Notes under the pieces: generated by a model
The model's database searches: none
What the model was told of the DNA's origin: nothing
Seen by the model: only the letters and a program-made list of their open reading frames with translations
From: Steroidobacteraceae bacterium
GTDB lineage: Bacteria; Pseudomonadota; Gammaproteobacteria; Steroidobacterales; Steroidobacteraceae
DNA length: 64,000 bases
Reading direction: 5' to 3'
Assembly (NCBI GenBank): GCA_025451845.1
Contig: JANWJS010000009.1
Coordinates: forward strand, 1-64,000
Program-made: the position numbers and the translations under genes
In this document: positions 8,809 to 45,621 of the stretch, piece by piece
How positions within the stretch are numbered: the stretch's first letter is position 1
Layout of the letters: every line of letters starts with the position of its first letter

Positions 8809-8840
8809 GCCCCTCCTTCTAACCGAAGCCGCCGGGGATG

Positions 8841-8867
8841 AAAAGGGGGCGCCGGACACGGCGCCCC
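8841..8867 (-). terminator. Intrinsic terminator or attenuator after TonB receptor 1
   Basis: A perfect 8-base stem, GGGGCGCC at 8846-8853 and GGCGCCCC at 8860-8867, with a 6-base loop. On the minus strand it is followed by CTTTTC. It lies 21 bases past the receptor stop, before halogenase-like 2, and could set receptor output above that of the enzymes. Confidence 0.72.
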
Positions 8868-8888
8868 TCCCGGACTCATGCATGCCGC

Positions 8889-11800
8889 TCAGAACGTGAC
8901 ACGCACTTGCGCCGAGTACGTCCGCCCGCTGTCGTACCAGGCGAAGGTCGAGGTCGCAATGTGCTGCTGCGCCAGCTCCTTGTAGACCGAATCGGTCAGG
9001 TTGAGAGCCTCGAAGCCCAGCGTGAGGTGCTCGTCGATCTTGTAGAAGATCGATGCGTCGAGCTCGCCATAGCTGTCCGCGAACAGGGGCAGACCCCAGG
9101 CCACGTTCTGGGAGCCGAAGCTCGCGCTGCTCGGGTCGGTATTCAGGCCGTTGGTCCCCTGGGTCGGGTTGACGTTGACGCCCATCAGGTACTTGCTGCG
9201 CCAGCTGTAGGCGAGACGCGCGGAGACCGGACCGCGGTCGTACAACAGAGCAGCGTTGAAGGCATACTTCGACAGGTTCACCAGGGGAAGGTTGCCAAAA
9301 GTGGTGCCGTTGGTATCGCAGCCGTTGAGATTGAGTCCGAGGTTGGCGGCGCCGCCGCTCGTCCCGTCGCAATACTTGCCGGTCACCGGGGTGTCTAGAG
9401 TCTGACTGCTGTCGATGTAGGTGAAATTCAACTGCGTGCCGAAACCTCGTAGCAGGCCTGGCAGGAAGTCATAGTATTGCTGATAGTCGAGCTCGAGACC
9501 CTTGATCTCCCCGCTGGCGCCATTGACGGGACCGGTCGTCGTAAACGTATGCGCGCCGCCGGCCGCATCGGTCCCGGTTATGTCGAACACCTGGTTGATC
9601 ACGACGTCCGTCAGGTGCTTGTAGAAGACGTCCGCGGTCAGTGAGCCGGTCGGCGCGAAGTACCATTCCAGGGTTCCGTCGACGTTCACCGATTTCGTCG
9701 GCTTCAGTTTCGGGTTGCCGTTGGCAGTGCCGGTGAAGGACTGTACGCCGGTGGTGGTGTCGATGCTCGAGCTGTTGGAGGTAAAGGCCTGTAGCTGCGA
9801 GAATTGCGGGCGCGCCATTCCCTCGGACACGGCGAAGTGCGATTGCAGGTGGTCGCTCCAGTGCAAGCGCACGTTGAGGCTCGGCAGAACGTCCGTGTAA
9901 TCGTTCTCGGCCGCTATTGGGGTCGCTGAGGCATCGAAGAACGCGTATCCCGCCGGCGAGCGACCGGTCGGCACATTGTTCGGCGCGAATTGATTCACGA
10001 CCAGGTAGCCGCTCGCGGTATCCACGCTTCGCACTACACGCACGCCGATGTCGCCGTCATACGGCGTACCTGCGAGCTTGGAGCCGAACGGCAGCATGAG
10101 GTATGCGGCGTAGGTGTGCTCGTCCTGCGTATTGAGCCCGCCAGCCGGCGGAGCCCCGGGCGCCGAGGTGAACGACGCCGCCTTCCATGAATTGGTGCAG
10201 CCAGGATTGATCTCTTTGCACAGAGTCGTAAAGAACGACTGCAATTGCGCGAAGGTGCCGGGCCACCCGGTCGCCAGGGAGGTCCCGGGAAATACCACCG
10301 GAGATGGCAGACTCACGCGGCCGTTGAAGAAGTTGGGAAAGCCGTAGCTGGTATGGGGTGCCGGAAATTTGTTCAGGTAGGCCAGCGTCGGAATGTCCCA
10401 CGGGAGCATCCAGCTTTGGCTGACCGCCGCCCAGTTGTAGCCGCTGCCGGGCTCCGTCACATCGGTCTCCGCACTGCGATCGTCCCAGCGCAAGCCGGCG
10501 CGGATCGACTTGAAGAAGCCGTTGCCGAGGCTGTAGTCCACGTCCTCGCGCCAGGCCCAATCCTGGCCGTGGCCGAACTCGAGGCCGTCCTGCGTGAACG
10601 CCCAGTAATAGTTGCTGGGATTCTGCATGAAGGACGCGGGGACCGAAGCGGTCGGAAACTCTCCTGCGAGATTGATCGTCTCGTACGGAACGTTCACCCC
10701 CGTCGCGACGGTAAAGTCATCGGCGTGGTTGTTGCCGCGGACGAGCTGCGCATCGGTCGTCAGCTTCAGCCTGTCGGTGGGGTCCCACTCCAGATTCCAC
10801 GAAAAATTGTTGGTTACGGAGTGCTGGTCGGCGGAACGCGTGTCGTCGTTCATCGGCAGGCCGTTGTCGCTGGGGTCGGTGAACGTCCCCGCGGTCAGCA
10901 TTCCGGCCGAGTTGTACTTGAAGCTGGTGCCCGCCGCGGGCTGGATGTTGTAGGGACTGGTCTGCGGGAATATCGCATTCTCATCCCAGTGGAACTTGTA
11001 GGATGATCCGAAGTAGGTCAGCGTCGTTACGACGTTATCGCTCGGACGCCACTGCAGCGCCACATAGGCGCCCTTTCGTGTCCTCTGGTATCGCAGCGTG
11101 CGCCACGTGACGCCCCCGTCCGGGACCCAGACCGTCTGGCCCGCCGGAACCCACGAGTCCTTGCTCGAGGTGGAGTTGGTGCGGGGAAAATAAGGGTACA
11201 GCTCCATGCCGTCCGTACGGTCTTGCACCTCGGAGTCCGCCACATCGACCAGCACGCCGACATCCCCGATCCCCGTGCGCCAGCGGTCGCTCAAGAGTAG
11301 CGACTCGTCGGGCTTGACATTGCCGCGGCTGAGATCGCCCCAGCTGCCCCCCACTGAGCCGCTGATCCGCGAGCCGCTGAAATCGAAAGGCTTCGCCGTG
11401 CGCAGGTCCACGACGCCCCCGACCCCGCCTTCGATCTGCGAGGCGTCCGGATTCTTGTAGACGTCCACGCCGGCCAGGAGCTCGGGCGGTATGTCATCGA
11501 AGCTCAGTGTACGGCCGCCATTGGCACTGAAACTGTCCTGGCCATTGATCTCGGAGCGGACATAGCTCAGCCCGCGGATCGTGAGGCCCGACCCCTCGGC
11601 CTGAAAGTGTTCCGGGTCGACGGTGCCGGCAATGTTGACGTAGGTGTGGTCGATCTCGACACCGGGGATGCGCTGCATGACCTCCGTGACGGAGCGATCG
11701 GGCATCTTGCCGATGTCGGCGGCGACCACCGAGTCGACGATCTGGCTCGACATCTGTTTGATGCGCTGCGCGGTCGCGACGGCCTGGCGTTGGCCCGTGA

Positions 11801-12017
11801 CGACGACCTCCCGCAGCACCGCCGAATTCGACTCGGCCGGCTGCGCGGCCCCCGCCGCATTGGCTTGCGGGAGCGCCTGATTCTGTGCATGCGCGCTTGC
11901 GCCAGACAGCGCGAGCACCAGCGCCAGCGCCGACACGGCGCCGGGTACTCGCAACGGTATGGCGGCTGCGGCGCTCGGGATGCAACGCGGGCCGCGATGG
12001 TTGAAGCGATGTGCCAC
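8889..12017 (-). CDS. TonB-dependent outer-membrane receptor 1 (Xanthomonas/Caulobacter type)
   Basis: A 1042-residue receptor. Signal peptide residues 1-44 end ASAHAQ. A TonB-box-like segment REVVVTGQR follows, then the plug (DSVVAADIGKMPDRSVTEVM, IPGVEID, GLTIRGL, VDVYKNPDASQIEGGVGG) and a long barrel. The last residues are AQVRVTF, ending in the terminal Phe typical of outer-membrane barrels. It should import oligosaccharides using TonB energy; the downstream GH35/GH31 point to xyloglucan fragments. The start is a GTG at 12017 with GGGGGAA 5 bases upstream. Two LacI-type operator candidates lie 90 and 175 bases upstream. Confidence 0.95.
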   Translation of the reverse strand: MAHRFNHRGPRCIPSAAAAIPLRVPGAVSALALVLALSGASAHAQNQALPQANAAGAAQPAESNSAVLREVVVTGQRQAVATAQRIKQMSSQIVDSVVAADIGKMPDRSVTEVMQRIPGVEIDHTYVNIAGTVDPEHFQAEGSGLTIRGLSYVRSEINGQDSFSANGGRTLSFDDIPPELLAGVDVYKNPDASQIEGGVGGVVDLRTAKPFDFSGSRISGSVGGSWGDLSRGNVKPDESLLLSDRWRTGIGDVGVLVDVADSEVQDRTDGMELYPYFPRTNSTSSKDSWVPAGQTVWVPDGGVTWRTLRYQRTRKGAYVALQWRPSDNVVTTLTYFGSSYKFHWDENAIFPQTSPYNIQPAAGTSFKYNSAGMLTAGTFTDPSDNGLPMNDDTRSADQHSVTNNFSWNLEWDPTDRLKLTTDAQLVRGNNHADDFTVATGVNVPYETINLAGEFPTASVPASFMQNPSNYYWAFTQDGLEFGHGQDWAWREDVDYSLGNGFFKSIRAGLRWDDRSAETDVTEPGSGYNWAAVSQSWMLPWDIPTLAYLNKFPAPHTSYGFPNFFNGRVSLPSPVVFPGTSLATGWPGTFAQLQSFFTTLCKEINPGCTNSWKAASFTSAPGAPPAGGLNTQDEHTYAAYLMLPFGSKLAGTPYDGDIGVRVVRSVDTASGYLVVNQFAPNNVPTGRSPAGYAFFDASATPIAAENDYTDVLPSLNVRLHWSDHLQSHFAVSEGMARPQFSQLQAFTSNSSSIDTTTGVQSFTGTANGNPKLKPTKSVNVDGTLEWYFAPTGSLTADVFYKHLTDVVINQVFDITGTDAAGGAHTFTTTGPVNGASGEIKGLELDYQQYYDFLPGLLRGFGTQLNFTYIDSSQTLDTPVTGKYCDGTSGGAANLGLNLNGCDTNGTTFGNLPLVNLSKYAFNAALLYDRGPVSARLAYSWRSKYLMGVNVNPTQGTNGLNTDPSSASFGSQNVAWGLPLFADSYGELDASIFYKIDEHLTLGFEALNLTDSVYKELAQQHIATSTFAWYDSGRTYSAQVRVTF

Positions 12018-32167: not shown

Positions 32168-33676
32168 ATGCCCGTCGATCCAATCCGCAGCGTCGCAATC
32201 ATCGGTGGAGGAACCGCGGGCTGGATGGCCGCGACGACGCTGTCGCGATTCTTCCCGCGGCTGCGGGGCGGCATCCGGCTGATCGAATCGGCGGATATCG
32301 GGACCGTCGGCGTCGGAGAGGCGACGATTCCGCCGATCATCGAGTACATCCGCACGCTCGGCTTCGATGAGAACGAGGTCGCGCGCCGTACGCAGGCCAC
32401 CTTCAAGCTCGGGATCGTGTTCAATGACTGGACGCGGCCAGGGCATTCTTATATTCACCCCTTTGGCCCTACGGGCCTCGCAAAACGAGGGGTGCCGTTC
32501 TGCGCGTATTGGCACAAGCGCGCGGAACGCGGCGCGGCTGCATCGCTGGAGGAGTACTCGCTGCAAGCCGTCGGCGCGCGCCACGGCAAGTTCATGCGCC
32601 CGGTCCGCGCCGCTAATTCGCCCCTGGAGACGATCACTTACGCTCTGCATCTCGATGCCAACCTGTTTGCCGCCTATCTGCGCACCCACGCGCAGGCCCA
32701 GGGCGTCCTGCGCACCGAAGGCAAGGTTCAGGACGTTACGCTCAGGCCGGAGGATGGCTTCATCGAGTCGGTCACGCTCGCCAGCGGCGAGCGGGTCGCG
32801 GCCGACCTCTACATCGACTGCACCGGCTTTCGCGGCCTGCTGATCGAGGGAGCGCTCAAAACCGGTTACCAGGACTGGACGCAGTGGTTACCTTGCGACC
32901 GCGCCGTGGCCGTACCCTGCGAGCGCACGGGTCCGCTTTCCTCGCACACCCTCGTCACCGCGCGGGATGTGGGCTGGCAATGGCGGATTCCCCTGCAGCA
33001 TCGCGTGGGCAACGGGTACGTCTACAGCAGTCAGTTCATGAAGGACGATGAGGCGCAGAACATCCTCATGTCGGGGCTCGAGGGACGGGCGCTGCGCGAT
33101 CCACTGCAGCTCAGGTTCACCACCGGCCGGCGCCGGCTCAGCTGGAACAAGAATTGTGTCGCCATCGGCCTTTCCGCGGGCTTTCTCGAGCCGCTGGAGT
33201 CGACGGGCATTCATCTGATCCAGCGCGGCATTTTCGTCCTGCTGAATTTCTTTCCCGATCGCAACTTCAGACAGGTCGACATCGATCGATACAACCGGCA
33301 GCTCGCCTTCGACTACGAGCACGCCCGCGATTTCATCGTGGCCCACTATCACCTGACGGAGCGGCCGGGAGAGTTCTGGCAGCATTGCCGCGCCACGGCG
33401 ATGCCCGATGGCCTGAAGGAGCGAGTCGAGCTGTTCCGCAGCCACGGCCGCCTGCTGCGCGACGACCGGGAGCTCTTTACCGTCCAGAGCTGGTTCTACC
33501 TGCTCACCGGCCAGAACGTTCAGCCGGCCGGCTACGACCCGATCGCCGACAGCCTGAGCGACGAGCAGGCGCAACTGGCGCTCGATGAAGTCCGTGAAGT
33601 CGTTGCGAACTGCGCTGCGAAAATGCCGTCGCATCAGGAGTTCATCGCCGAAAACTGCGCCGCGGCGGCCGGCTAG
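32168..33676 (+). CDS. FAD-dependent tryptophan-halogenase family protein (halogenase-like 3)
   Basis: A 502-residue paralogue of the 5.8 and 7.3 kb genes: GGGTAGWMAATTL for FAD, ATFKLGIVFNDW with the conserved Lys, WQWRIPLQHRVGNGYVYS and GFLEPLESTGIHLIQ. The ATG at 32168 has GTGAGG 4 bases upstream. It lies 115 bases after xylA on the same strand and could belong to the xylBA transcript, linking this flavoprotein type to xylose use as well as to receptors. Convergent with the aspartic protease gene, 3 bases apart. Confidence 0.9.
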   Translation: MPVDPIRSVAIIGGGTAGWMAATTLSRFFPRLRGGIRLIESADIGTVGVGEATIPPIIEYIRTLGFDENEVARRTQATFKLGIVFNDWTRPGHSYIHPFGPTGLAKRGVPFCAYWHKRAERGAAASLEEYSLQAVGARHGKFMRPVRAANSPLETITYALHLDANLFAAYLRTHAQAQGVLRTEGKVQDVTLRPEDGFIESVTLASGERVAADLYIDCTGFRGLLIEGALKTGYQDWTQWLPCDRAVAVPCERTGPLSSHTLVTARDVGWQWRIPLQHRVGNGYVYSSQFMKDDEAQNILMSGLEGRALRDPLQLRFTTGRRRLSWNKNCVAIGLSAGFLEPLESTGIHLIQRGIFVLLNFFPDRNFRQVDIDRYNRQLAFDYEHARDFIVAHYHLTERPGEFWQHCRATAMPDGLKERVELFRSHGRLLRDDRELFTVQSWFYLLTGQNVQPAGYDPIADSLSDEQAQLALDEVREVVANCAAKMPSHQEFIAENCAAAAG

Positions 33677-33679
33677 GCA

Positions 33680-34759
33680 TCAGCTCGCGAGCGACAGCAT
33701 GCCTTGCGGAATCTGTGAGCTGGTGATCTCGAACCGCAACTCCTTGCGTCCGTAGTCGATCGAGACACGCGTGCAGCGCCGCAGGCAGTCCATGCCGATG
33801 AGCAGGGCCGGTTGCTTACTCAAACCCCAGATGCTGAACACGGGCAGATCGGCGACCACCGCGGTAGCGTACGTCAGAACCAATTCGCCGAGGGTGATCC
33901 TGGCGAGCAGGGTCGTGATTCCCACGACACTGCCGCCAGTCACTCCGGTCAGGGCTTCCGTAGTCCGTAGGGTCGACACGGGGTTGTGCCGTTGCAGAGC
34001 CGCATATAAGGCCTGGTTGATGACTGATACTTCGGCGCCGGTGTCGAGAAAGGCGGCAGCATGGATACCGTCGATCACGCAGTCTGTGGCCCGCAGGCGC
34101 CCTGAATCGCCCAGCGTGGGAACGCGCACTTCATCGTTGCGTGTCCAGAACGCCGAGAAGAAGCCTTTAGGTCGCAAGATCGTCAGCGTTCTCGCCCCGA
34201 AATCGAAGATCACCCGCCGCCCATCGAGCACGTCGAGGCCGAGATAGCCGTCTCCATTCAGCATGACGCGCGGCAACGTGGGCACCTCCAGCCGCGGACA
34301 GACGAGAGATCCCATTTCCAGCTGTCGGATCTCGACGAGGCATGCAGGCTCGCCGCGGACGATTCCCTGGACGAGCACTTTGCGGCCGCGTGGCAGCGCC
34401 AGTCGCTCGGCGATGTCTGCTGCAATGATGGTCCGCTCGGACCCCGTGTCTACCATCAGGCGATAGACCCCGTAGCCATTGATTCTCACCGGGGTGGTCA
34501 GTCTTCCGGTCAGGTCGGTCGCCGAAGCCAGCGAGCCTGACTCTCCAGCAGCAGGCGAAGGTGGAGGTGCGCCATTCGCCTGCGTCACGCGGGGTGCGCG
34601 CTCGAGCCGTTCCCGCCCAAAGGCCGGGGGAAGCACGGATGCGAATGCCAGAGGCAGGAACCCGGTGGTGATCAAGCGCCGCCGCGACCACGAGGCACGC
34701 AGGCTCTCTTGCCCCCCAGGAGGGGCCGGTCGGGCCGAAATGACGTCATTCCCATCCAT
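33680..34759 (-). CDS. Retropepsin-like aspartic protease with two DTG motifs, exported
   Basis: A 359-residue protein. The N-terminus has SRRRLITTGFLPLAFA, a twin-arginine-like signal. Two aspartic-protease lobes follow: YRLMVDTGSERTIIAADIA, with GYLGLDVLDGRRVIFDFG downstream, and AAFLDTGAEVSVINQALY, with LLIGMDCLRRCTRVSID downstream. Each holds a catalytic DTG, so one chain could form the active dimer-like site that single-domain retropepsins build from two copies. It should work in the periplasm. It is the last gene of the co-directional run from TonB receptor 2, 106 bases after the cupin gene. Confidence 0.85.
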   Translation of the reverse strand: MDGNDVISARPAPPGGQESLRASWSRRRLITTGFLPLAFASVLPPAFGRERLERAPRVTQANGAPPPSPAAGESGSLASATDLTGRLTTPVRINGYGVYRLMVDTGSERTIIAADIAERLALPRGRKVLVQGIVRGEPACLVEIRQLEMGSLVCPRLEVPTLPRVMLNGDGYLGLDVLDGRRVIFDFGARTLTILRPKGFFSAFWTRNDEVRVPTLGDSGRLRATDCVIDGIHAAAFLDTGAEVSVINQALYAALQRHNPVSTLRTTEALTGVTGGSVVGITTLLARITLGELVLTYATAVVADLPVFSIWGLSKQPALLIGMDCLRRCTRVSIDYGRKELRFEITSSQIPQGMLSLAS

Positions 34760-34865
34760 AGGGGAGTCTTGGGGCGCCCTCGGTGACTACCCTGCCGAGC
34801 AGCATGCCCCTTAGCCGGCCGGTTGTCATCGGCCGCCAGGCCCTGCGGACCCTTTATTCCCGGGT

Positions 34866-35882
34866 TCAGCCGCCCCGCAGCATGTGCATGACCCGAGCGC
34901 GGATCCGCGCGTAGTTCTCCGGCTTCAGGGGCCCCAGCAGCCCGTGCTGTTCCGGCGGCAAGTGCGCCAGGGGGTGGCCTCTGGTGCGGAATACGTAGTG
35001 CTCGAAGAACGCCTTCCATGCCTGGCGCTCGGCAGGCGGCCGCTCCGCGATCGCGATCATGCTGAGAAGCATGCTCGCATAGGGCGCATCGGGCCCGGCG
35101 CTGAAAGCATCCCACCAATAATTGATGAGGCCATTGACGGGGGCGAGTGACTCCACCTTGTGCCACCACAGCTTGGGCAGATAGAGCGCGTCCCCCGCCT
35201 CGAGCTCGACCCTGAGCGCCTGATCCCGAATTTCCTCGAAGAGCGGGAAATCCCCGTCCTGCGGACCGTCCGCCGACGCAGCTAGACTGACAGGAGCGCC
35301 GGCCATCGTGTTGTCGATGGGACCGACGTAGAGTTTGCCAATCAGGTCGGGCGCAAACAGTGTGAAGCGACGCCTGCCTGCGATCACACAGGCGAGATTG
35401 TCGAAGGTGTCGTGATGGCAGGAGACGTTCGAGCGCGTGCCGAGCCAGATGCGCGGACCCACCCCGGGCGCGAGCAACGGCATGGGGTTGCTGGAGGCGA
35501 AGCCCGGCAGCGAGTCGCCCGTCGGCACCGAGCCGACGTAGATCGATGGCGCATCGACACGATCAAGCGAGTCCACCATGACTCGCAGCGCCTCGGCCAG
35601 CGTCATCATGCGCCGCTCGAAGTTGAATCCCTTGTAATCCGGCGCGTAGTAGTACTTGCCCGCGATCTCGGGATTGCCCAGATAGGCCTCCACGCGCCCG
35701 CCGACATCGAGCCCCGATAGATAATCCTTCAGCCGCGCCGGGGATTCCCGCGCCGCCCGCACGACCGGCCAATCGGCGATGAGACCGCGTAGAACCACGG
35801 GTCTGCACCCCGCGACCACCTCGAGTTGGAAGCGCTCCGCATCGAAGTCCCGGTCGGCGCTCTCCTGGGGCGAGAGCGTCAT
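34866..35882 (-). CDS. Cupin-like (JmjC/Cupin_8) putative Fe(II)/2-oxoglutarate hydroxylase 1
   Basis: A 338-residue protein of the Cupin_8/JmjC-like group. Iron-binding residues appear complete: HxD in NVSCHHDTFDN and the distal His in LPKLWWHKVESL. Other family traits are the early RPVVLRGLIADWPVV and VIAGRRRFTLFAPD. Members hydroxylate proteins or small molecules using 2-oxoglutarate and oxygen. It lies 43 bases after SapC in the receptor 2 operon. No signal peptide is seen, so the substrate is probably cytoplasmic. Confidence 0.88.
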   Translation of the reverse strand: MTLSPQESADRDFDAERFQLEVVAGCRPVVLRGLIADWPVVRAARESPARLKDYLSGLDVGGRVEAYLGNPEIAGKYYYAPDYKGFNFERRMMTLAEALRVMVDSLDRVDAPSIYVGSVPTGDSLPGFASSNPMPLLAPGVGPRIWLGTRSNVSCHHDTFDNLACVIAGRRRFTLFAPDLIGKLYVGPIDNTMAGAPVSLAASADGPQDGDFPLFEEIRDQALRVELEAGDALYLPKLWWHKVESLAPVNGLINYWWDAFSAGPDAPYASMLLSMIAIAERPPAERQAWKAFFEHYVFRTRGHPLAHLPPEQHGLLGPLKPENYARIRARVMHMLRGG

Positions 35883-35925
35883 GGGTCACCGCGCAGCGCG
35901 CCGGCGGGAGCGGCAAAACGGAAAT

Positions 35926-36660
35926 TCAGCCGTGCGTCGATGCGCGCACCACCGCGAGTCCTTCGGTGCTCTCCAGGATACGTCCGTTCTTCTTGCGCGC
36001 CAGCTCCGGAAACTGCTTGAGCGAGGCGATCATGTAGTGACAGAGACGCATGTAGCCGCGCCGGAAGAGCTCCACCACGGCCGCGTCCGGCAGCGTGCTG
36101 AGAGTGTCCTGGTTGACGGTGTAGAGCCCCTCGCAGTTGATGATCCTGCCGTCGTCGAACTCTGCCTCGATCTCCACCGGCTCGATGAGCTTCAGCTCGA
36201 GGAGGCGGGCAATGAAGTGCCGCGTCACCTCGATCCCAGGCTTCAGGTCCTGAAAGGCCCAGATGATGCTCTGCAGGTACCGTGTGGGCTGCCCGTGCTC
36301 GGTGAAGAGCGCCTTGCCGTCCTCGACGCCAACCCGCGGGTGATCCAGGTCGATCGCGACGTCGGGCCCGTGCGCGTAGAACGGGACGCGCTGCAGGCCC
36401 AAAGGCCGGTAGAACTGCAGATCGCGCCACTCATCGAGAAAGAGATTCTCTCCCTCATCGAATCCGAGCATGGCCCCGCAGTAGAACTCGCCGGTATTCG
36501 CGTCCTTCGAGAAAAGGAGCGGGTAATGCACGACCAGCTGCGGAAACTCGCTGACGATCACGTGCGCGAAGCGCTGATTGTCACCGTAGGCCGCCGAAGC
36601 CCGCGCATCGACCTTCAGCGACTTGTGGGTCTCTTTGTTCAGCGGAACGATCTGGGTCAT
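35926..36660 (-). CDS. SapC family protein
   Basis: A 244-residue protein with SapC-family traits: TQIVPLNKETHKSLKVD at the start, FAHVIVSEFPQLVVHYPLLF, FYCGAMLGFDEGENLF, and QDTLSTLPDAAVVELFRRGY. The family is named after an S-layer-secretion gene, but its biochemical role is unknown. In Xanthomonadales and Caulobacterales such genes often sit beside TonB receptors and halogenase-like flavoproteins, as here: 27 bases after halogenase-like 4 and 43 bases before the cupin. No signal peptide or membrane segment is seen, so it is probably cytoplasmic. Confidence 0.9.
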   Translation of the reverse strand: MTQIVPLNKETHKSLKVDARASAAYGDNQRFAHVIVSEFPQLVVHYPLLFSKDANTGEFYCGAMLGFDEGENLFLDEWRDLQFYRPLGLQRVPFYAHGPDVAIDLDHPRVGVEDGKALFTEHGQPTRYLQSIIWAFQDLKPGIEVTRHFIARLLELKLIEPVEIEAEFDDGRIINCEGLYTVNQDTLSTLPDAAVVELFRRGYMRLCHYMIASLKQFPELARKKNGRILESTEGLAVVRASTHG

Positions 36661-36687
36661 CTGCGAAATCCAGGTCTTGGACGGACC

Positions 36688-38235
36688 TCAGACGGGCTGC
36701 AGTCCGTACTCGTAGATCTTGTTCAAGAGCTCGCGGTTCTTCGGCAGGCGCGCGCGCATCTCACCCGTCGCCCGCTCATTCTCCTTCAGAAGCCGTGAGG
36801 CGGCCAGTGCGGTCTCGACCGTATCCTCCGGTGCGACCTGGGTCTTGAAACCCATGCCGTAGAGCACGTACTGGTAGCTGGCCGCGGGGAAGACCTCCTC
36901 CAGCCGATCGAGCTCGTCGAAGAACCAGGGCGACTGGTACTTCCACAGCATCAGCAGGTCCCGCAGCCGGTCCGGCACGGTGGCCGGATCCACATTATCA
37001 CGCCAGAAAGCCGTATCGGTGCGCTTCGTGAGCACGTAGTGCAGCTTCAGGAAATCGACGATGCGGCCGAAGCGATACATCGTCACCTCGTTGAAGCGCC
37101 GCGCGATGATGTCCATCACCTCGCGGCACGCCGGCATCTGCTCCGCGATGAGCTTGGCGGAAAGCTCGACGAGGACGATGGCCGAGGACTCGAGCGGCTC
37201 GAGAAAGCCGCTCGCGAGCCCGACCGCGACGCAGTTGTTCTTCCAGAAGGTCTCGCGATGGCCAGCGCGGATCGGAATCTTTCGCACCGGCAGGTGCTCG
37301 TGGTCCGGGCCGACGTACCGCAGCAGCGTCTCGCGCGCCGCCTCTTCGCTCTGGTGGCGGCTCGAGTAGACATAGCCGATGCCGCGCCGGGTAGGCAGGC
37401 AGATGTCCCAGGTCCATCCGGCCTGCTGTGCCGTCGAGACGGTCTGGGAGGCCATCGGCGCATCGGGGGCGTCGAACGGCACCTGGACGGTAAGAGCGGT
37501 ATCGCAGAAGAGAACATCGCTGCAACCCTTGAATCCGACACCGAGCGTCTTGCCGATGAGCAGCGCCGCGAAGCCGGTGCAATCGATGAAGAGATCACCC
37601 AGGATCTCCCCGGCCTGCTTCGTCAGCACGCTCTCGATATCGCCGGACTCCCGTTGGTTGACCTGCACCACATCGGCGAGGACGTGGCGGACGCCGAGCT
37701 TCTCGGTGCAATGCTTGGCGAGGAAGGGAGCGAATTTCCCTGCGTCCAGGTGATAGGAATAATTGGCCAACCCACGGTACTCCGCGTGGGTGATCGTCTT
37801 CGGCGCCAACCCTTCATCGCACAGCCGCCCCTGCGGACTCACGAAATCGCAGAAGCTTCGCCCCTGGCCCTCGCGTACCCAGTGGGGCACGAGATTCACC
37901 TGAGAGAACCCCTGCGGGACCATGAGCGGATGATAGTAAGCGTCATCCTGCGCCCCGGTCGTCCAACCGGCGAATTTTCCTCCCTGCTTGAAAGCGGCAT
38001 CGCACTCCCTGAAGAGCGCAGTCTCCGACACGCCCATCCTTTCCAGGGATGAGCGCATCGTCGGCCACGTCCCCTCCCCGACGCCGATGATCTTGATGTC
38101 CGGAGACTCGATCAGCGTCACGGAGAAGCCGCCCGCCTTCATCCGAGCCTGATGGCGGGCGGCGATGATGCCTGCGGTGAGCCAGCCGGCAGTTCCTCCG
38201 CCGACGATGACGACCGCCTTGACGGCTTGCACCAT
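36688..38235 (-). CDS. FAD-dependent tryptophan-halogenase family protein (halogenase-like 4, divergent motif)
   Basis: A 515-residue flavoprotein with VIVGGGTAGWLTAGII for FAD, AAFKQGGKFAGWTTG with the likely catalytic Lys and GFLEPLESSAIVLVE. The signature reads WTWDIC, followed by LPTRRGIGYVYSS, where the other three paralogues have WQWRIPLQHR. This marks a separate subgroup. The ATG at 38235 follows the receptor 2 stop by 1 base, so it is directly coupled to the receptor. The next gene is sapC. Confidence 0.9.
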   Translation of the reverse strand: MVQAVKAVVIVGGGTAGWLTAGIIAARHQARMKAGGFSVTLIESPDIKIIGVGEGTWPTMRSSLERMGVSETALFRECDAAFKQGGKFAGWTTGAQDDAYYHPLMVPQGFSQVNLVPHWVREGQGRSFCDFVSPQGRLCDEGLAPKTITHAEYRGLANYSYHLDAGKFAPFLAKHCTEKLGVRHVLADVVQVNQRESGDIESVLTKQAGEILGDLFIDCTGFAALLIGKTLGVGFKGCSDVLFCDTALTVQVPFDAPDAPMASQTVSTAQQAGWTWDICLPTRRGIGYVYSSRHQSEEAARETLLRYVGPDHEHLPVRKIPIRAGHRETFWKNNCVAVGLASGFLEPLESSAIVLVELSAKLIAEQMPACREVMDIIARRFNEVTMYRFGRIVDFLKLHYVLTKRTDTAFWRDNVDPATVPDRLRDLLMLWKYQSPWFFDELDRLEEVFPAASYQYVLYGMGFKTQVAPEDTVETALAASRLLKENERATGEMRARLPKNRELLNKIYEYGLQPV

Positions 38236-38236
38236 C

Positions 38237-41200
38237 TTAGAACTTGGCGCGCACCCCCAGCGTGTACGAGCGTCCAAAGTCCACGAGGTTCAAGGTCTGG
38301 TTCTTGAAGCGCCCGTAGGTATGGTAGACGCTATCCGTGAGATTCAGCGCCTCGAAATATACGCTCACGTTGCTGGTCAGGTCGTAGGTGCTGCTGAAAT
38401 CCAAGTTGGTCGAGGACGCCAGGTACACCGGTTCGTTACCGAATGCTCCACCGCTCTGCTCCTGACCCAGCGTGAGCAACTGGCTGCCCTGCCACTGCAG
38501 TGCGATTCTAGCCTGCAATCCGTGCGCCTGGTAGAAGGCGATGAGGTTCGCCGAGTTGCCGACGCCCGGCAGCGCGAACTGGTTGCTGGTGTAGGTAGTG
38601 GCGTTGAAGTTCCTGTTGCTGTGCGCGTAGGTCCCGTTGATCTGGAGCCCGAACCCGTACATCAACATCTGCTGCCAGGTTGCCTCCAATCCGGTGACGT
38701 TGGCAGAGAGGCCGTTGACGATGGTGCTCTCTTGGAACACCATCGGTTTACCGGAGGTGTTCGACAGCGGTCCGCCCGTCAAGGGATTGATGGCCGGAGC
38801 AGGATCGAGGATGTTGGGAAACTCAACAGGCGTAATGCTCGAGACCGGGAACTGGGTGACGTGCTTGAGGAAGCCGTCCAACGATACGTAGTCGTTCTCC
38901 GCGTAGTACCACTCAGCCCCAAGATCGAAGTTGTCCGCCAGATACGGTAACAGCTTCGGGTTCTGGCCGGTCGCACTGAGTGCGTTGACCCGCCCGCTAT
39001 AGGTGATCCCGGGAATGAGCTGGCTGTTGACCGACGGCGTCTCGGTCCGGGAGAAGTCGGCCCGCACCTTGAGGTCCGGCGTGACCATCAGGTTGAGGTC
39101 GAGCGCCGGCAGGAAGTAGCCGTAGGAGTTGTTGCTCGTCGTCTTCGCGGGAGTGGTCAGGTTGATTTGGTACGCCGTGGCATCGCCGGGTCCCGACCAG
39201 GCCACGCTCTGCACCGTCGCCCCGAGTCCAAAGATGTCCACTTTGGTCTTCTGGTAGCGAAGTCCCAGATCGACTTTCAAGGTCATGTCACCGAGCGGAA
39301 CGTTCTGCTCCGCGGTGACGAAGGGCGAGTAGTTCTGGCGATCGACGTGCTGCACCGTGCCGTAGTTCAGGCCGGGCTGGGGAAAGCCTCCGGTATAAGC
39401 GGGATAGCCACTGCTGGCCTTGAAGCCCGCATTGATCGGCTTCCCTAGCAGGTAGTTGACGACCGTGTACGGATTGTACTCGAGCAGGCTTCCGGGCAGG
39501 TTTCCTCCGCCGCTGTAGCCTGGCATCCAGGTGCCGAGGTTCACCGCCGTGAAGAACGACGACGGCAGCGCCTGACCGCTCTTGTTGCCCGAGGCCGGTC
39601 CGTAGCCCGACCAGAGCTGCCAGTAGTTGTTCTGCAGCGTATCCATCGAGTGCGAGTTCCAGGTGTCATCCTCGAACTGGGCGCCGAAGTTCACCTTGGT
39701 GCTGTCCTTATGCCAGGTGGCATCGAGCTTCACCTCGTTGATCTTGTCCGTGTTCTCCTGGATCCCGTTCACGATCACGTGCGAGCCGACGATGAACGGA
39801 TTCAATCCGTTGGCGTTCGGCGATGCGACGGCGGAGGAGCCCGAGGCCACGGCGCCCGGACCATAGCCGGTCCAGTAGGGCAGCACGTTGCCGTTGGAGT
39901 TGAGCGCCAGGCCGCCGGTGTAGTTGTTCAGCGTATTGCCATAGCCGGTGTCGGCGTCGATCTGGCTGAGGCCGCCGTTCGGGTTGAGCTTCGATACCGA
40001 TTGATCGGCATCGAACTCCGCAGACCAGTCGTCGCTCATGTCCCACTGGACATTGATACCCGGCGTGTTGGTCACGAAGTAGATGTTGGTCACGAAGGCA
40101 TTGAAATCAGTCGGGCCGGTGTAGTTGAAATTGGTGATCGTGCCGTTGGAGTCGACGGTCGCGTTGGGGAAGGCACCGAACCAGGTGCTGCGCTGCCAAC
40201 GATCCATGTGCTCATTGTCGGACGAGTAGTTGTCATCGATCGTTACCAGCACCGCGTCCGACGGACGCCACTCAAACGCCACGCGCCCGTCCTTGCGCCG
40301 GGAGTCGGTGCGTTCCAGGTACATGGCCATGTCCTGCGGGAACCACTGCGGGTTGACGCTGGCGCCGGTGGAGTCGGGCGTGCAAGCAGCAGGGTTCGCG
40401 AACGATGAGCAGGGCAGGTGAGTGCCCTTCCAGCCCACGATATCCTGATGGTGGCCGAGGATATGGTCGTCCGAGTAGTCCGCGTCGATCAGGATACCGA
40501 ACTTGCCATCGGCGAAAGTGTCGCTCAGCAATCCGCCGAAGGAAGGCCTCATCCCGCCGTCCAGATCGTGGTCGCTCTCTTGCACGAAGGTCTGGGCGTG
40601 AAGGCCGGGATGATCGAAGGGATTGGGGAACTTGATGTTGATCGTCGCGCCGATGGCCCCGCTGGACAGACTCATGTCCGGAGTCTTGAGGACGTCTATC
40701 TCGCCGAGGTAGTTCGCCCCGATCGCGCTGAAATCGAAGTTCTGGCCGTTGCCCGAGGCGATCGTGCGGCCCGACTCCAGGACCTCGTTGAATTGCGTGC
40801 CAAATCCGCGAACGGTGATGCCCGTCACGTTGCCGGTCGCAGTTGGAGCACCGCCTCCGGCCATCTGGTTGACGGAGCCGCGGTTGACGGTAATGCCGGG
40901 TATGCGCCCGATGGCCTCACCCACCGATGCGTCCGGGAACTGTCCAATGTCCTCGGCAGAAATCGCATCCACCACGCCCACCGACAACTTCTTGATCTGC
41001 AGAGCTCGCTGCAGCGACGCGCGGATGCCCGTCACCACGATCTCCTGCAGGGTCCCTGCGCTGTTGGTCGGGGCCGGAAGGTTCGTGTCCTGCGCGGCGC
41101 TGCCGGCAGGGGCGGCTTGCGCAATCAAACCGGCACCGTCGGCCGGCAATGCACTACTGGCGGCGAGTCGTGTGACCTTGGTTCGCAGCGACTTCGCAGC

Positions 41201-41413
41201 CTGCGTGCTGGGCGCGGGCTTTGCCTTGGTATCAGTGCTCGCCCCCTTGGACGCAGCAGCATCCTGCGCGTGTACCGCGCCGGCAATGGCCATGGAGCCC
41301 AGCGCCAGGCTGGAGAGGCCAAGGCTCATGTAGGGCAGGCGCAGCGCGGCGGGCGACTGCTCTGCCTTGGAGGCATTATTCGACGACACATTTCGTCTGG
41401 ACTTGCGGCTCAT
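38237..41413 (-). CDS. TonB-dependent outer-membrane receptor 2
   Basis: A 1058-residue receptor. The signal peptide ends AVHAQ near residue 51. Then comes an unusually long Ala/Ser/Pro-rich linker of about 80 residues before the TonB-box-like LQEIVVTGIRASLQ. The plug (DAISAEDIGQFPDASVGEAI, IPGITVNRG, GITVRGFGTQFNEVL, EIDVLKTPDMSLSSGAIG) and barrel follow, ending LGVRAKF with the terminal Phe. I use the ATG at 41413 because the signal peptide follows; the frame is open to 41467. A LacI-type operator candidate lies 138 bases upstream. It heads the halogenase-sapC-cupin-protease operon. Confidence 0.95.
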   Translation of the reverse strand: MSRKSRRNVSSNNASKAEQSPAALRLPYMSLGLSSLALGSMAIAGAVHAQDAAASKGASTDTKAKPAPSTQAAKSLRTKVTRLAASSALPADGAGLIAQAAPAGSAAQDTNLPAPTNSAGTLQEIVVTGIRASLQRALQIKKLSVGVVDAISAEDIGQFPDASVGEAIGRIPGITVNRGSVNQMAGGGAPTATGNVTGITVRGFGTQFNEVLESGRTIASGNGQNFDFSAIGANYLGEIDVLKTPDMSLSSGAIGATINIKFPNPFDHPGLHAQTFVQESDHDLDGGMRPSFGGLLSDTFADGKFGILIDADYSDDHILGHHQDIVGWKGTHLPCSSFANPAACTPDSTGASVNPQWFPQDMAMYLERTDSRRKDGRVAFEWRPSDAVLVTIDDNYSSDNEHMDRWQRSTWFGAFPNATVDSNGTITNFNYTGPTDFNAFVTNIYFVTNTPGINVQWDMSDDWSAEFDADQSVSKLNPNGGLSQIDADTGYGNTLNNYTGGLALNSNGNVLPYWTGYGPGAVASGSSAVASPNANGLNPFIVGSHVIVNGIQENTDKINEVKLDATWHKDSTKVNFGAQFEDDTWNSHSMDTLQNNYWQLWSGYGPASGNKSGQALPSSFFTAVNLGTWMPGYSGGGNLPGSLLEYNPYTVVNYLLGKPINAGFKASSGYPAYTGGFPQPGLNYGTVQHVDRQNYSPFVTAEQNVPLGDMTLKVDLGLRYQKTKVDIFGLGATVQSVAWSGPGDATAYQINLTTPAKTTSNNSYGYFLPALDLNLMVTPDLKVRADFSRTETPSVNSQLIPGITYSGRVNALSATGQNPKLLPYLADNFDLGAEWYYAENDYVSLDGFLKHVTQFPVSSITPVEFPNILDPAPAINPLTGGPLSNTSGKPMVFQESTIVNGLSANVTGLEATWQQMLMYGFGLQINGTYAHSNRNFNATTYTSNQFALPGVGNSANLIAFYQAHGLQARIALQWQGSQLLTLGQEQSGGAFGNEPVYLASSTNLDFSSTYDLTSNVSVYFEALNLTDSVYHTYGRFKNQTLNLVDFGRSYTLGVRAKF

Positions 41414-41550
41414 CAGACATCTCCCCCTCAACAGATCTGGACGTTGCAGAAAAACAACAATCAGCATCCGCCGCGGCGCGACAGATACTTACAAGCAGAA
41501 TTCGGAAGACCCCTTACGTAATGGCGCTCTTGGCTACCGCACTCTCGCGA

Positions 41551-41564
41551 TGGTAGCGCTACCT
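41551..41564. promoter_or_regulatory. LacI-type operator candidate (proximal) for TonB receptor 2
   Basis: TGGTAGCGCTACCT, a near-perfect palindrome with one end mismatch. It lies 138 bases before the receptor 2 ATG. Confidence 0.62.
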
Positions 41565-41860
41565 TAACGCGCAGCGAGTATGTGCCTGTTCTTTGGCCCG
41601 TGTCAACTGCCGTGGCGTGCGGCTGACGCGCGAGCTTTACTCGCGGGTAATTTGCGGCCGACCGGGCGTAGGGCGAGTGACCCCAAACGTCAACTTCAGC
41701 CGCCGGTGATGCACGGCAGTATGCAGCCCGCCAGATCAATGATTGCGCGAACAGCAGCCGCCCGGCCCGCCCGTAGCGCTGCCCCGGCGGCCGGGTACCG
41801 ACCGTCTTGCTGACTATCAGAAGCCGTTGTTCACAGACCACGCCCGCCCGCCTCCTGCAG

Positions 41861-42162: not shown

Positions 42163-43251
42163 TCACGGTGCGGACAGCAGCACGCGCATGACCTGATCCC
42201 GCAAACTTTGCGGCAAACGCTTCGCCAGGGATCTGATCAGATGTTTTCTGAGATAGTTCGCGAGGCCCGGTGACAGTGCGCTCAACATCCCGCGGCGGTC
42301 GCGCGGCAGATAGGGGGTCGGGTCCCCGTTGGTCTGAAAGACGTAGTGATCGAACATCATCCGCCAGACTTCCCTGCGGTTGGCGGGCAGAGGGGTTATT
42401 GCGAGCAATCCGTGCGCCAGCGCGCCGAACGGCTCCGCCTCCCAGGGGATGGCGTCGAACCACCAGTAATTCACCGATAGATTCACGGGCTCGAGCGACT
42501 CAACGTTGTGCCACCAGAGATTCGGGATGTAGACGGCATCCCCCGGCTCGACGTCCGCCTCCTCGGCCGCGGCCAATGCCTGTGTGAACCGCGGATATCG
42601 CTCCAGGTCGGGCGCCGCGACTTTCACCAGGCTGATGGGCTGCCCGGCGGGACCGAGCTCCAGCGGTCCGATGTACAGGTTGGGCAGCTGGTCCGGCGGA
42701 AAGAACGTGAAGCGCTTGCGGCCAGTGACCATGCAGTTGATGCCATCCATGTTGTCGTAGTGCGTCGCCGTAGTGACGGCATTGCTCAGCCAGAACCTGG
42801 GCTGAGACGGCCTATCCAGGATGTCCAGCGTATTTTCCCGGGCGATCTGCGGGCAGCTCTCGGCCGCCGGCGTCGCCATCGAATAGATGGCGGGCGGATC
42901 CGGCCGGCCGATGTTGTCCAGAATGCGCGCGAGCGTGGCATGCAGCGAGTGGCGCTCGACCTCGAAGTTCAACCCCGCCATATCGTCGCGCAGAAAATAA
43001 AGGCCTTTGATGTCCGGCCGCCCAACCATGACACTGACGGGAGTGCCCAGGTCGCGGGTACGGACATAGTCGAGCAGCGCCTGAGGGGACTGCGCGCTCG
43101 CGCGCACGATCGGCCAGTGCTCGACCAATCCCTTCAGGACCGCCGGCCGATCGCCCGGGATGATCTCGCCGCGAAGCGTCTTCAGATCAACGTTCCGCCA
43201 TTCCCTTGTCTTGCGCAGGGAGGGTCGTTCCGAAATGTTGGCGGTTTCCAT
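42163..43251 (-). CDS. Cupin-like (JmjC/Cupin_8) putative Fe(II)/2-oxoglutarate hydroxylase 2
   Basis: A 362-residue paralogue of the 34.9 kb cupin. The iron ligands are HxD in TATHYDNMDG and the distal His in IPNLWWHNVESL, preceded by RPAVLKGLVEHWPIV. Because the HxD...H set is intact, it may be an active oxygenase. It is followed by the 750-base gap before the receptor 2 operon, so it is probably its own transcript. It is divergent from the GT41 gene with about 170 bases between them. Confidence 0.88.
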   Translation of the reverse strand: METANISERPSLRKTREWRNVDLKTLRGEIIPGDRPAVLKGLVEHWPIVRASAQSPQALLDYVRTRDLGTPVSVMVGRPDIKGLYFLRDDMAGLNFEVERHSLHATLARILDNIGRPDPPAIYSMATPAAESCPQIARENTLDILDRPSQPRFWLSNAVTTATHYDNMDGINCMVTGRKRFTFFPPDQLPNLYIGPLELGPAGQPISLVKVAAPDLERYPRFTQALAAAEEADVEPGDAVYIPNLWWHNVESLEPVNLSVNYWWFDAIPWEAEPFGALAHGLLAITPLPANRREVWRMMFDHYVFQTNGDPTPYLPRDRRGMLSALSPGLANYLRKHLIRSLAKRLPQSLRDQVMRVLLSAP

Positions 43252-43422
43252 TGGGGCTCTCTGTGGGCTGGGCGGCGCTCAGACTCGGGTTGGTCTCGCG
43301 AGCGCATGGTACCCGCATCGAAATGAGGGCGAAAGCGTCCGCGCAGACCCTGTCCGCTCGGGTGCGACACCGCTCGCCGGGCTCATCGGCCGTGCGATGC
43401 CTATATAATGAAGGCCTCGATC

Positions 43423-45621
43423 ATGGCGACTGACGCAGCACTCCAGGTGGAATCAGCGCTTCGCGAGGCGCACGGGCTCCATCGGGCGGGGCGGCTCGAG
43501 GACGCCCGCGCAGTGTGCCTGCGCGCTTTGCAGTTGCGGCCGCGGCAGCTCGAGGCGTTGAATCTCCTGGGCATCATCGCCGCTCAAACAGGCGACCCTG
43601 CGCGCGCCGTTGCGTTCTTTGGTGAGGTGCTGCAGCTCGATCCGCGAAACCTCGCGGCGCACAACAATCACGGCAACGCCCTGCGGGCCCTCGAGCAGCC
43701 GGCGGCGGCCATCGCGAGCCATGACAGGGCAATCGCGATCAAGCCGGATCATGCCCCGAGCCACTATGGCCGCGCCAAGGCGCTACACGAGCTGCGACGC
43801 TACGAAGCTGCCGTCGCAAGCTACGACCAGGCGATCGCGCTGCGGCCGGACTACGCCGAGGCTTTCTGCAGCCGTGGCAGAGCGTTGTTCGAGCTGCAGC
43901 GGTACGAGGCCTCTCTTGCGAGCCATGACAAGGCCATCGCGCTGCGGCCTCGCTACGCGGCAGCTTACGTGGATCGCGGCCGGGCACTGGCCGGGATGAC
44001 ACGCTACGAGGAGGCGATCGCAAGCCTCGGCAAGGCAATCGAGCTCGAGCCCGGGCATCCGGGCGTGTGGTATATCCGTGCCAATGCTTTGTATTCGCTC
44101 GAGCGGTTCGAGGCCGCGCTGCAGAGTTACGACAGGGCGATGGCGCTCGCGCCCGCCGATGCGAGCGCCTACCAGAACCGTGGCAACGCGCTGCTCATGC
44201 TCGAGCGCTACGAGAGCGCGATAGCAAGCTATGACAAGGCGATTGAGCTCGACCCAGACGACAGCTCGGCGTATGGCAAGCGCCTGCATGCCCGAATGTA
44301 CATCTGCGATTGGCGCGATTTCGCGCCCGAGGTTGCGCGGCTGGCGCAGCGTATAGAGCGCGACGAGGCCACATTGAATCCTTTCGCCGTCCTCGCCCTG
44401 TGCGGCTCCGCGCAGTTGCAGAAGCGGGCGGCGCAGAACTGGGTGCGGCAGGAATGTCCCCCGAATGACAGGCTGCCCGCGCTACCCCAGCGAAGCCGGC
44501 GCGACAAGATAAGGGTCGGCTACTTTTCCGGGGATTTCCGCGGCCACGCGATTTCCTTCCTCACCGCTGAATTGTTCGAGACTCACGACCGGCGCCAGTT
44601 CGAGCTGACCGCGTTCTCGCTGGGTCTGAATACGAAGGACGACATGAGAGCGCGGCTCGAGGCGGCGTTCGACAGCTTTCTCGACGTGCAGCACGAGTCC
44701 GACCATGACATCGCGCGACTTGCCAGGAGCCTGGAGATAGACATCGCCGTGGACCTCGGCGGATTCACGCGTGGCGGCAGGCCGAGGATCTTCGCGACGC
44801 GGGCCGCGCCGCTGCAGGTGAGCTATCTGGGCTACCTCGGTACGATGTCGGCCGACTACATGGACTATCTGATCGCGGACGGTACGATCGTCCCCGCGGC
44901 GCATCAGCAGTACTATTCCGAAAAGATCGTCTACCTGCCCAGTTATCAGGTCAACGACTCGAGGCGGCCGATCGCCGCGAGGCGATTTAGCCGCGAGGAG
45001 CTCGGCTTGCCGCCCGCGGGCTTCGTCTTCTGTTGCCTCAACTCCACCTACAAGCTCACGCCGGGCACCTTCGCGGGCTGGATGCGCATCCTGGCGCGCG
45101 TGCCCGGCAGTGTGCTTTATCTCCTGGGCGGCAGTGCGGCGCTCGAGAGCAATCTGCGCCGCGAGGCCGATGCACGGGGAGTCGCGCCAGAGCGGATCGT
45201 GTTTGGCGCGAGACTACCCCGTGCCGAGTATCTGGCCCGTTATCGCACGGCCGACTTGTTTCTGGACACGCTGCCTTATAACGCGGGCACGACAGCCAGT
45301 GATGCGCTGTGGGCAGGCCTGCCGGTTCTCACCTGCATGGGGGAGGCGTTTGCCAGCAGGGTCGGGGCGAGTCTGCTGCGGGCCGTCGGGCTGGCGGAGC
45401 TCATCGCCGCGACGCCGGAGCAGTACGAGCAGCTCGCTGTTGAGTTGGCGAGCGACCCGCAGCGGATGGCCGCCATCCGGGCAAAGCTCGCAGCCGGCGT
45501 TCGAACGTCGCCTTTGTTCGATACCGCCGCCGCGACCCGGCACCTGGAAGCAGCCTACGCGAGGATGTATGACCGCTATCACACCGGTCTGCCACCCGAG
45601 CATATCCGCGTAGATGCCTGA
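43423..45621 (+). CDS. TPR-repeat O-GlcNAc-transferase-like protein (GT41, SPINDLY-like)
   Basis: A 732-residue protein. The first about 290 residues are TPR repeats (EALNLLGIIAAQTGDPARAV, AHNNHGNALRALEQPAAAIA and six or more similar units). The rest is a GT41-type transferase: RVGYFSGDFRGHAISFLTAE, IDIAVDLGGFTRGGRPRI, QVSYLGYLGTMSADYMDYLI, FVFCCLNSTYKLTPGTFAGW and LFLDTLPYNAGTTASDALW, the last forming the nucleotide-sugar site. Relatives transfer GlcNAc or another sugar to protein Ser/Thr. Two starts are possible: ATG 43408 overlaps a TATAAT, so ATG 43423, with AAGG 9 bases upstream, is preferred. No signal peptide, so it acts in the cytoplasm. Confidence 0.92.
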   Translation: MATDAALQVESALREAHGLHRAGRLEDARAVCLRALQLRPRQLEALNLLGIIAAQTGDPARAVAFFGEVLQLDPRNLAAHNNHGNALRALEQPAAAIASHDRAIAIKPDHAPSHYGRAKALHELRRYEAAVASYDQAIALRPDYAEAFCSRGRALFELQRYEASLASHDKAIALRPRYAAAYVDRGRALAGMTRYEEAIASLGKAIELEPGHPGVWYIRANALYSLERFEAALQSYDRAMALAPADASAYQNRGNALLMLERYESAIASYDKAIELDPDDSSAYGKRLHARMYICDWRDFAPEVARLAQRIERDEATLNPFAVLALCGSAQLQKRAAQNWVRQECPPNDRLPALPQRSRRDKIRVGYFSGDFRGHAISFLTAELFETHDRRQFELTAFSLGLNTKDDMRARLEAAFDSFLDVQHESDHDIARLARSLEIDIAVDLGGFTRGGRPRIFATRAAPLQVSYLGYLGTMSADYMDYLIADGTIVPAAHQQYYSEKIVYLPSYQVNDSRRPIAARRFSREELGLPPAGFVFCCLNSTYKLTPGTFAGWMRILARVPGSVLYLLGGSAALESNLRREADARGVAPERIVFGARLPRAEYLARYRTADLFLDTLPYNAGTTASDALWAGLPVLTCMGEAFASRVGASLLRAVGLAELIAATPEQYEQLAVELASDPQRMAAIRAKLAAGVRTSPLFDTAAATRHLEAAYARMYDRYHTGLPPEHIRVDA

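Follow-up and report, generated by a model that had tools for sequence, protein, structure and literature searches.

A recurring gene set of TonB-dependent receptor, halogenase-like flavoprotein, SapC and cupin in proteobacterial sugar-uptake loci, with a tentative role in receptor maturation

In the fiu-ybiX and piuA-piuC gene pairs, the gene of a 2-oxoglutarate oxygenase adjoins that of a TonB-dependent receptor, but the receptors are siderophore receptors, the enzyme is of the PKHD type, and neither a flavoprotein nor SapC accompanies them. TonB-dependent receptor genes also stand with glycoside hydrolase genes in the carbohydrate utilization (CUT) loci, or proteobacterial polysaccharide utilization loci (Blanvillain 2007, PMC1790865), which are defined without a companion set of the kind described here; the words halogenase, SapC and cupin are absent from the main text of that paper. 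Likenesses to both were found in an operon located in a stretch of 64,000 nt from a Steroidobacteraceae bacterium (GCA_025451845.1, contig JANWJS010000009.1; the whole stretch is called the window). The operon (33680-41467, minus strand) encodes a TonB-dependent receptor, a PF04820 flavoprotein, SapC, a Cupin_8 oxygenase and a two-DTG protease. Across genomes, the genes of the receptor, of one or two flavoproteins (in most cases of the WxWDI type described below) and of SapC, often with that of the cupin, form a recurring tight unit in Gamma- and Alphaproteobacteria. This gene set is real and is new to the literature searched, in which no description of it was found (most subscription journals lay outside the reach of the search); its joint function is what we infer below. 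At sugar loci, annotators of SEED and RegPrecise have reportedly marked genes as “tryptophan halogenase”, “SapC-like” or “Pass1-related”, which would amount to prior notice of the linkage.

The five genes of the operon are all on the minus strand, and the single direction given for them in an earlier note on this stretch thus holds. The receptor (open reading frame (ORF) 38237-41467) belongs to the TIGR01782 class, with plug and barrel (484.9 bits, cut-off 310), and probably starts at 41413, an internal ATG of the ORF from which the protein begins MSRKSRR. The flavoprotein, of the WxWDI[non-Pro] subclass (ORF 36688-38277; 397 bits, cut-off 21), has its likely ATG at 38235, one base past the receptor stop, the spacing that the earlier note had read. 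SapC (35926-36660) matched PF07277 over its full length (195 bits, profile positions 1-220 of 220). The Cupin_8, or JmjC-like, Fe(II)/2-oxoglutarate oxygenase (34866-35882; PF13621, 194 bits) has the intact HxD...H set previously ascribed to it, and the aspartyl protease (33680-34759; PF13650/PF13975), described before as exported with two DTG motifs, carries these at residues 104 and 239 behind a twin-arginine-like SRRR leader from which export is predicted. From the ORF coordinates, the gaps are 27 nt between flavoprotein and SapC, 43 nt between SapC and cupin, and 106 nt between cupin and protease.

For the linkage survey, SapC was used as the anchor, and receptor and flavoprotein were scored within 5 kb; genes in the fetched DNA were called by a longest-ORF scheme, and the SapC at locus L020 and the cupin at L077, missed by it, were restored from the raw matches for the counts. 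In an even sample of the class (275 genomes), SapC was found in 40 genomes at 51 places. Outside the window genome there were 50 such places, at 10 of which receptor and flavoprotein were both present (7 with the cupin), at one flavoprotein and cupin without a receptor, and at 39 none; only five candidates per genome were scored in the class-wide PF04820 search, so that its counts are lower bounds. In a sample of the phylum (397 genomes, SapC in 134), 60 SapC loci were taken among the matches listed, down to an E-value of about 1e-62, with the genera of weaker SapC matches lying outside: 58 genera contributed their top-scoring listed place each, one of these (G566, g281) a further locus as well, and genus g161, represented in the class sample too, the last. 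Receptor and flavoprotein were both present at 16 of the 60, 10 of them with the cupin, and neither at 40; a receptor alone was found at three, and a flavoprotein alone at one (L158), where the contig is 6.1 kb long and a receptor may lie off its end. The linkage of receptor and flavoprotein with each other at SapC loci is far beyond chance (Fisher p of about 1e-9 and 1e-10, uncorrected for kinship).

The pair was also present at seven of eight loci of near relatives and at five of five plasmid loci; both figures are biased, the relatives having been found via the window SapC and the five plasmid loci chosen from 29 matches. Cupin_8 matches above 150 bits occurred at 19 places among the 275 class genomes, all of them in seven genomes, the very ones in which a flavoprotein gene adjoins SapC; the 150-bit line was set after the list had been viewed, and the next place, at 142 bits, belongs to a genome without SapC. 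At L073, flavoprotein, SapC and cupin are present, and no receptor ORF was called beside them. SapC was rejected as a marker of the cassette alone because at most SapC loci (39 of 50 in the class and 40 of 60 in the phylum) both receptor and flavoprotein are missing within 5 kb. Consistent linkage in relatives had been set beforehand, in the earlier note, as the test of the five-gene system; it was found for receptor, flavoprotein, SapC and often the cupin, and not for the protease. The protease was recovered as four ORFs among 129 sequences (window, L014, L015 and L018) and is a local, lineage-specific extra outside the recurring set.

The order of the genes was surveyed at 45 loci with at least two labels near SapC (the two genes restored for the counts were not entered here, so that L020 is absent from this set; the row of L127 rests on a weak PF04820 match). 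There were 24 arrangements, the commonest of which (6 of 45) was receptor, WxWDI flavoprotein, SapC, cupin and second flavoprotein. The receptor gene was separated from the gene beside it by a median of 138-150 nt, and the median gaps between companions were 2.5-43 nt (SapC-cupin 5 nt, flavoprotein-SapC 22 nt), with several 4-nt overlaps. The variable order would suit passenger genes, that is, flavoprotein, SapC and cupin co-inherited through shared regulation and serving separate housekeeping roles such as redox balance or the folding of other surface proteins. The three phylum loci with receptor and SapC and no flavoprotein also favor this, as do flavoproteins and cupins found away from SapC, but companion genes with overlaps or minimal gaps in different orders and classes, and high-scoring cupins limited to the same seven of 275 genomes, argue otherwise, and we consider the explanation unlikely. 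At L165 (G566:C12), a single receptor cassette contains one WxWDI flavoprotein flanked by two SapC genes.

The group C halogenases BrvH, Xcc4156 and MibH share with the flavoprotein the PF04820 fold, the GxGxxG motif, the catalytic Lys and FxEPxE. Judged by its motifs, the window protein is the divergent halogenase-like flavoprotein of the earlier note, with the divergence now assigned to the Pro of WxWxIP and to the halide loop, and with the catalytic residues kept. It has the flavin adenine dinucleotide (FAD) motif GGGTAG, FKQG with the catalytic Lys, FLEPLESSA, and WTWDICLP in the place of a WxWxIP motif. Among 92 aligned PF04820-like ORFs, including a few weak, distant ones, 33 form this WxWDI subclass. 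In all 33, unlike in the group C enzymes, the Pro is replaced (Gly 26, Cys 5, Ser 1, Ala 1), the halide loop is altered (EASA 18, ESSA 8, EATG 4, EATA 3; the window ESSA ends in Ala) and VGEGT takes the place of the usual VGEAT, while the catalytic Lys and Glu are retained; in alignment A2, none of the 12 rows departs from K97 or E363. The halide loop of the WxWxIP members is mainly ESTS (26) or ESTG (7), and loss of its Gly by itself is a weak marker, since most WxWxIP members also lack this Gly. A shift of the flavoprotein towards oxygenation is possible from these changes. WxWxIP is absent from some known halogenases as well, according to a passage of PMC8407142.

All 33 WxWDI ORFs lie near SapC, but most of these loci were collected through SapC; of the 30 ORFs not near SapC, 29 keep the Pro and one is degenerate. 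A profile search anchored on the flavoprotein gave 55 places in 32 of the 397 phylum genomes, with SapC within 6 kb at 45, coordinates being compared by hand and the motif being read throughout for the other ten. An ordinary halogenase that stands by chance beside an ordinary receptor would agree with the family names alone and with the intact FAD motif and catalytic Lys. The altered WxWxIP and halide motifs and the linkage statistics oppose it, and chance neighborhood was refuted by the linkage counts at SapC loci, so that this explanation is highly improbable. The best matches of the window flavoprotein in the PDB were 2PYX, 9LTB and 9LU2, all with the WxWDI motif in the alignments and deposited as “tryptophan halogenase”; a search by code found no publication for 9LTB, 9LU2 and 9LUQ, and 2PYX is called unpublished in a passage of PMC7336383. 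A third subtype, WAW[QE]ID, was seen at L138, L141 and L157, where it accompanies a WxWDI flavoprotein, with SapC and GH20 (glycoside hydrolase family 20) genes adjacent. Two WxWDI-profile matches contain one in-frame TAG each (G431:C1:233617-235173 and G503:C1:358697-360217).

The HxD...H metal set was present in all 39 cupins aligned. By sequence and by fold, the nearest solved relatives of the cupin were the protein hydroxylases FIH, JMJD5 and JMJD7, and the tRNA enzyme TYW5, which have the same Cupin_8 fold and metal set. FIH has a Lys that binds 2-oxoglutarate, whereas these cupins have Arg in that column in 37 cases, including the window, and Lys in 2. In the fold search, identity to the nearest structures was 16-22%; the model is weak (predicted local distance difference test score (pLDDT) 56.0), and its fold matches mostly repeat the sequence result. 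Second Cupin_8 copies also occur at L017, L070, L071 and L073.

The SapC family name implies a role in the S-layer. No convincing solved relative was found by phmmer against the PDB (sole match E 0.78), and a scan of viral contigs, meant to deepen the SapC alignment, brought up no relative. Outside the cassette, an ORF of at least 900 amino acids (aa) lay within 3 kb of SapC at 39 of 80 loci, a raw proportion uncorrected for background, and examples of its neighbors there are ShlB, FecR, SecA-like, HlyD/M50 and TolC-type genes. These contexts fit an export-client role. Giant ORFs of about 2,200-3,140 aa, some beginning with an LEPRFLLSADP-like sequence, stand beside SapC at L054, L057, L062, L064, L074 and L108, and at L054 and L108 they are accompanied by SecA-like and HlyD/M50 genes. 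Such loci are a second, probably secretion-related context of SapC; no Pfam match was obtained for the giants of L062 and L064, the two scanned. In family f202 of the phylum sample, outside the class of the window, SapC follows a gene of about 480-530 aa (L113, L114, L120, L121, L124, L131, L133, L136, L139 and L147), and in the three tested loci (L113, L121 and L124) this gene encodes an FAD-linked oxidase.

Other genes of the window are those of GH67, GH39, glucuronate isomerase and a GH3 enzyme; a glucuronoxylan-type locus is therefore likely, and from these neighbors the ligand of its receptor may be a xylan-type sugar. Elsewhere, 15 of the 20 large ORFs beside 18 cassettes encode glycoside hydrolases (GH3, GH20, GH43, arabinofuranosidase, GH9, GH127); the other five are a DPP-IV-like peptidase, two beta-lactamase-like proteins, a redoxin-like protein and a Sel1 protein. 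The plasmid cassettes lie with xylanase/GH43/GH115, with GH9/GH43/GH95, or with an agarase and a beta-galactosidase. The perfect palindrome GGTAGCGCTACC (41552-41563), similar to a LacI-type operator, was located 85 nt before the receptor ORF of the window. Five distinct copies of exact GGTAGCGCTACC were found in 3.14 Mb of fetched DNA, all within 160 nt of a called cassette-receptor start, and six of TGTAAGCGCTTACA, five of which, from four loci, are no farther than 350 nt from such a start; as this DNA counts overlaps, is enriched for cassette loci and includes some close relatives, the counts are not a genome-wide rate. Neither exact palindrome was present at most of the 36 loci checked. 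Operators like TGGTAGCGCTAACA are presumably those named XylR box. The set is thus kept together while the glycan enzymes and the operator-like sites around it vary.

This bears on what the enzymes act upon. According to one explanation, their target is the imported oligosaccharide, which they would alter at an aromatic part (e.g., feruloyl groups), or else a degradation product in the cell. The genes do sit in glycan loci, at several of them near operator-like palindromes, and the group C enzyme BrvH is reported, in a passage of PMC8269204, to halogenate indole and not tryptophan in vitro. Chemistry on the ligand should vary with the glycan, and the set, with no visible change of that kind, argues against it, as related sets are found at agarase, GH20, GH3 and xylan-type loci, for quite different sugars of plants and algae. 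Most glycans of such loci have no aromatic group, which counts against it further. The enzymes, inspected by eye, have no export signals, whereas the ligand enters the periplasm. Modification of the ligand is accordingly regarded as rather unlikely, and of the covalent processing of ligand, receptor or peptide proposed in the earlier note, the ligand part is disfavored.

The explanation preferred here, with a probability of roughly 35%, is that the set is a receptor-maturation cassette of sugar-uptake loci, whose companions would treat the receptor before export. It was preferred because of the apparent independence of the ligand, the tight packing of the companions, the lack of export signals, the JmjC-like relatives of the cupin and the other contexts of SapC, which together suggest that the enzymes act on the receptor rather than on the sugar. 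Flavoprotein, SapC and cupin would all be cytoplasmic. SapC would bind the newly made receptor and hold it in a presentable state until Sec export; the flavoprotein, with FADH2 from a general reductase and O2, would oxidise the receptor by hydroxylating or halogenating an aromatic side chain that is probably a Trp; and the Cupin_8 enzyme, with Fe(II), 2-oxoglutarate and O2, would hydroxylate another side chain of the receptor. The modified receptor would then reach the outer membrane. At loci that include the protease, this enzyme would be exported by the twin-arginine pathway and work in the periplasm. In its fuller form, the proposal is one of post-translational maturation of an outer-membrane protein: dedicated enzymes, with SapC as their guide, would oxidise this clade of proteobacterial sugar receptors in the cytoplasm, ahead of export. 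That form is still doubtful.

If it is true, a large subclass of “tryptophan halogenases” would have a native protein-bound substrate and might be hydroxylases or halogenases of receptor Trp, and SapC would be an escort that serves exported surface proteins in general. Heterologous expression and structural work on receptors modified before export would miss a step, and glycan uptake would gain a control point dependent on O2 and 2-oxoglutarate. In the passages on BrvH and Xcc4156, no native substrate is given for either. For BrvH-type and Xcc-type “tryptophan halogenases”, the recurrence of such genes beside sugar receptors offers a concrete candidate for the native substrate.

A possible site on the receptor was sought among 68 receptors: 39 linked to SapC, 11 linked to a flavoprotein or cupin only, and 18 unlinked. 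The receptors of L179 and L160 were put by hand into the first group (SapC hidden by a short flank or by a second flavoprotein), and one cupin-only receptor was grouped with the flavoprotein-only ones. Trp at window residue 429 was present in 38 of 39, 2 of 11 and 4 of 18, respectively, and Trp346 in 90, 0 and 50%. Trp429 may therefore be named as a candidate modification site, confounded by ancestry, and because of that ancestry it is kept as a place to look and not as a result. The receptor gave no match in the PDB at an E-value of 0.001.

Several observations weigh against maturation of the receptor. In the tree, Trp429 tracks two clades of SapC-linked receptors; two receptors of the main clade scored as unlinked still have it, and the L160 receptor, which is accompanied by two WxWDI flavoproteins, does not. 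For eight of the 18 “unlinked” receptors the view extended over 1.5-kb flanks only, and a linkage may have been missed in some of them. Trp residues of this kind might also do no more than stack on sugars. The core is not uniform: by a hand tally, the WxWDI type is present at 31 of the 45 loci, other PF04820 types only at 10 and none at 4, and the cupin is missing from 6 of the 16 linked loci of the phylum sample. The ten flavoprotein places without SapC within 6 kb comprise seven WxWDI, one WxWNI and two WxWRVP proteins; a rule that WxWDI occurs only with SapC was rejected on the seven, and the pairing is a strong tendency, not an absolute one. Over loci, the distances calculated for the receptor, the flavoprotein, SapC and the cupin are correlated (28 and 17 loci; Mantel r 0.55-0.87, reached by 0 of 2000 permutations each); this counts in favor of the proposal, but is also expected from common descent of the operon as one unit. 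The AlphaFold2 model of SapC was poor (pLDDT 50.6, from 9 sequences) and unfit for a fold search, and the role proposed for SapC is drawn from its genomic context. One of the folds closest to the cupin, that of TYW5, belongs to an enzyme with tRNA as its substrate.

Another explanation makes the operon a pathway for a modified peptide or a halogenated indole, which would be bound by the receptor or report on the sugar. The tight packing of the genes stands against it, as does the lack of a nonribosomal peptide synthetase (NRPS) Condensation domain in a profile search, small precursor ORFs having not been searched systematically; we hold it to be very unlikely. The earlier note had seen no NRPS nearby, and for Condensation domains this extends to the whole window genome (97% complete); the flavoprotein lacks the NRPS surroundings of a secondary-metabolite halogenase, which also speaks for receptor maturation.

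Around the operon, a promoter-like TTGACA-18-CATACT (41577-41606, minus strand; 10 of 12 matches) directly precedes the palindrome; two sites of that quality occur in the region against 1.3 expected. A canonical PF04820 flavoprotein gene with WQWRIP and ESTG (32168-33676, plus strand; 31% identity to the operon flavoprotein) converges on the protease stop and is preceded by a xylose-isomerase-like TIM-barrel gene. Another TIGR01782 receptor gene followed by two canonical (WQWRIP) PF04820 genes (5789-12017, minus strand) has no SapC or cupin within 6 kb. In all, the window genome has seven strong PF04820 genes and one weak, and one weak flavin reductase match. Upstream of the operon receptor lies a second Cupin_8 gene (42163-43251, minus strand; 38% identity to the first). 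Divergent from it is the gene of a TPR and GT41 (O-GlcNAc-transferase-like) protein (43408-45621, plus strand). GT41-type or TPR-only labels were also seen near the cassettes of L017, L018 and L019; the GT41 profile includes TPR repeats, and these matches could be TPR-only. A protein glycosyltransferase may, from such labels, be part of the cassette neighborhood.

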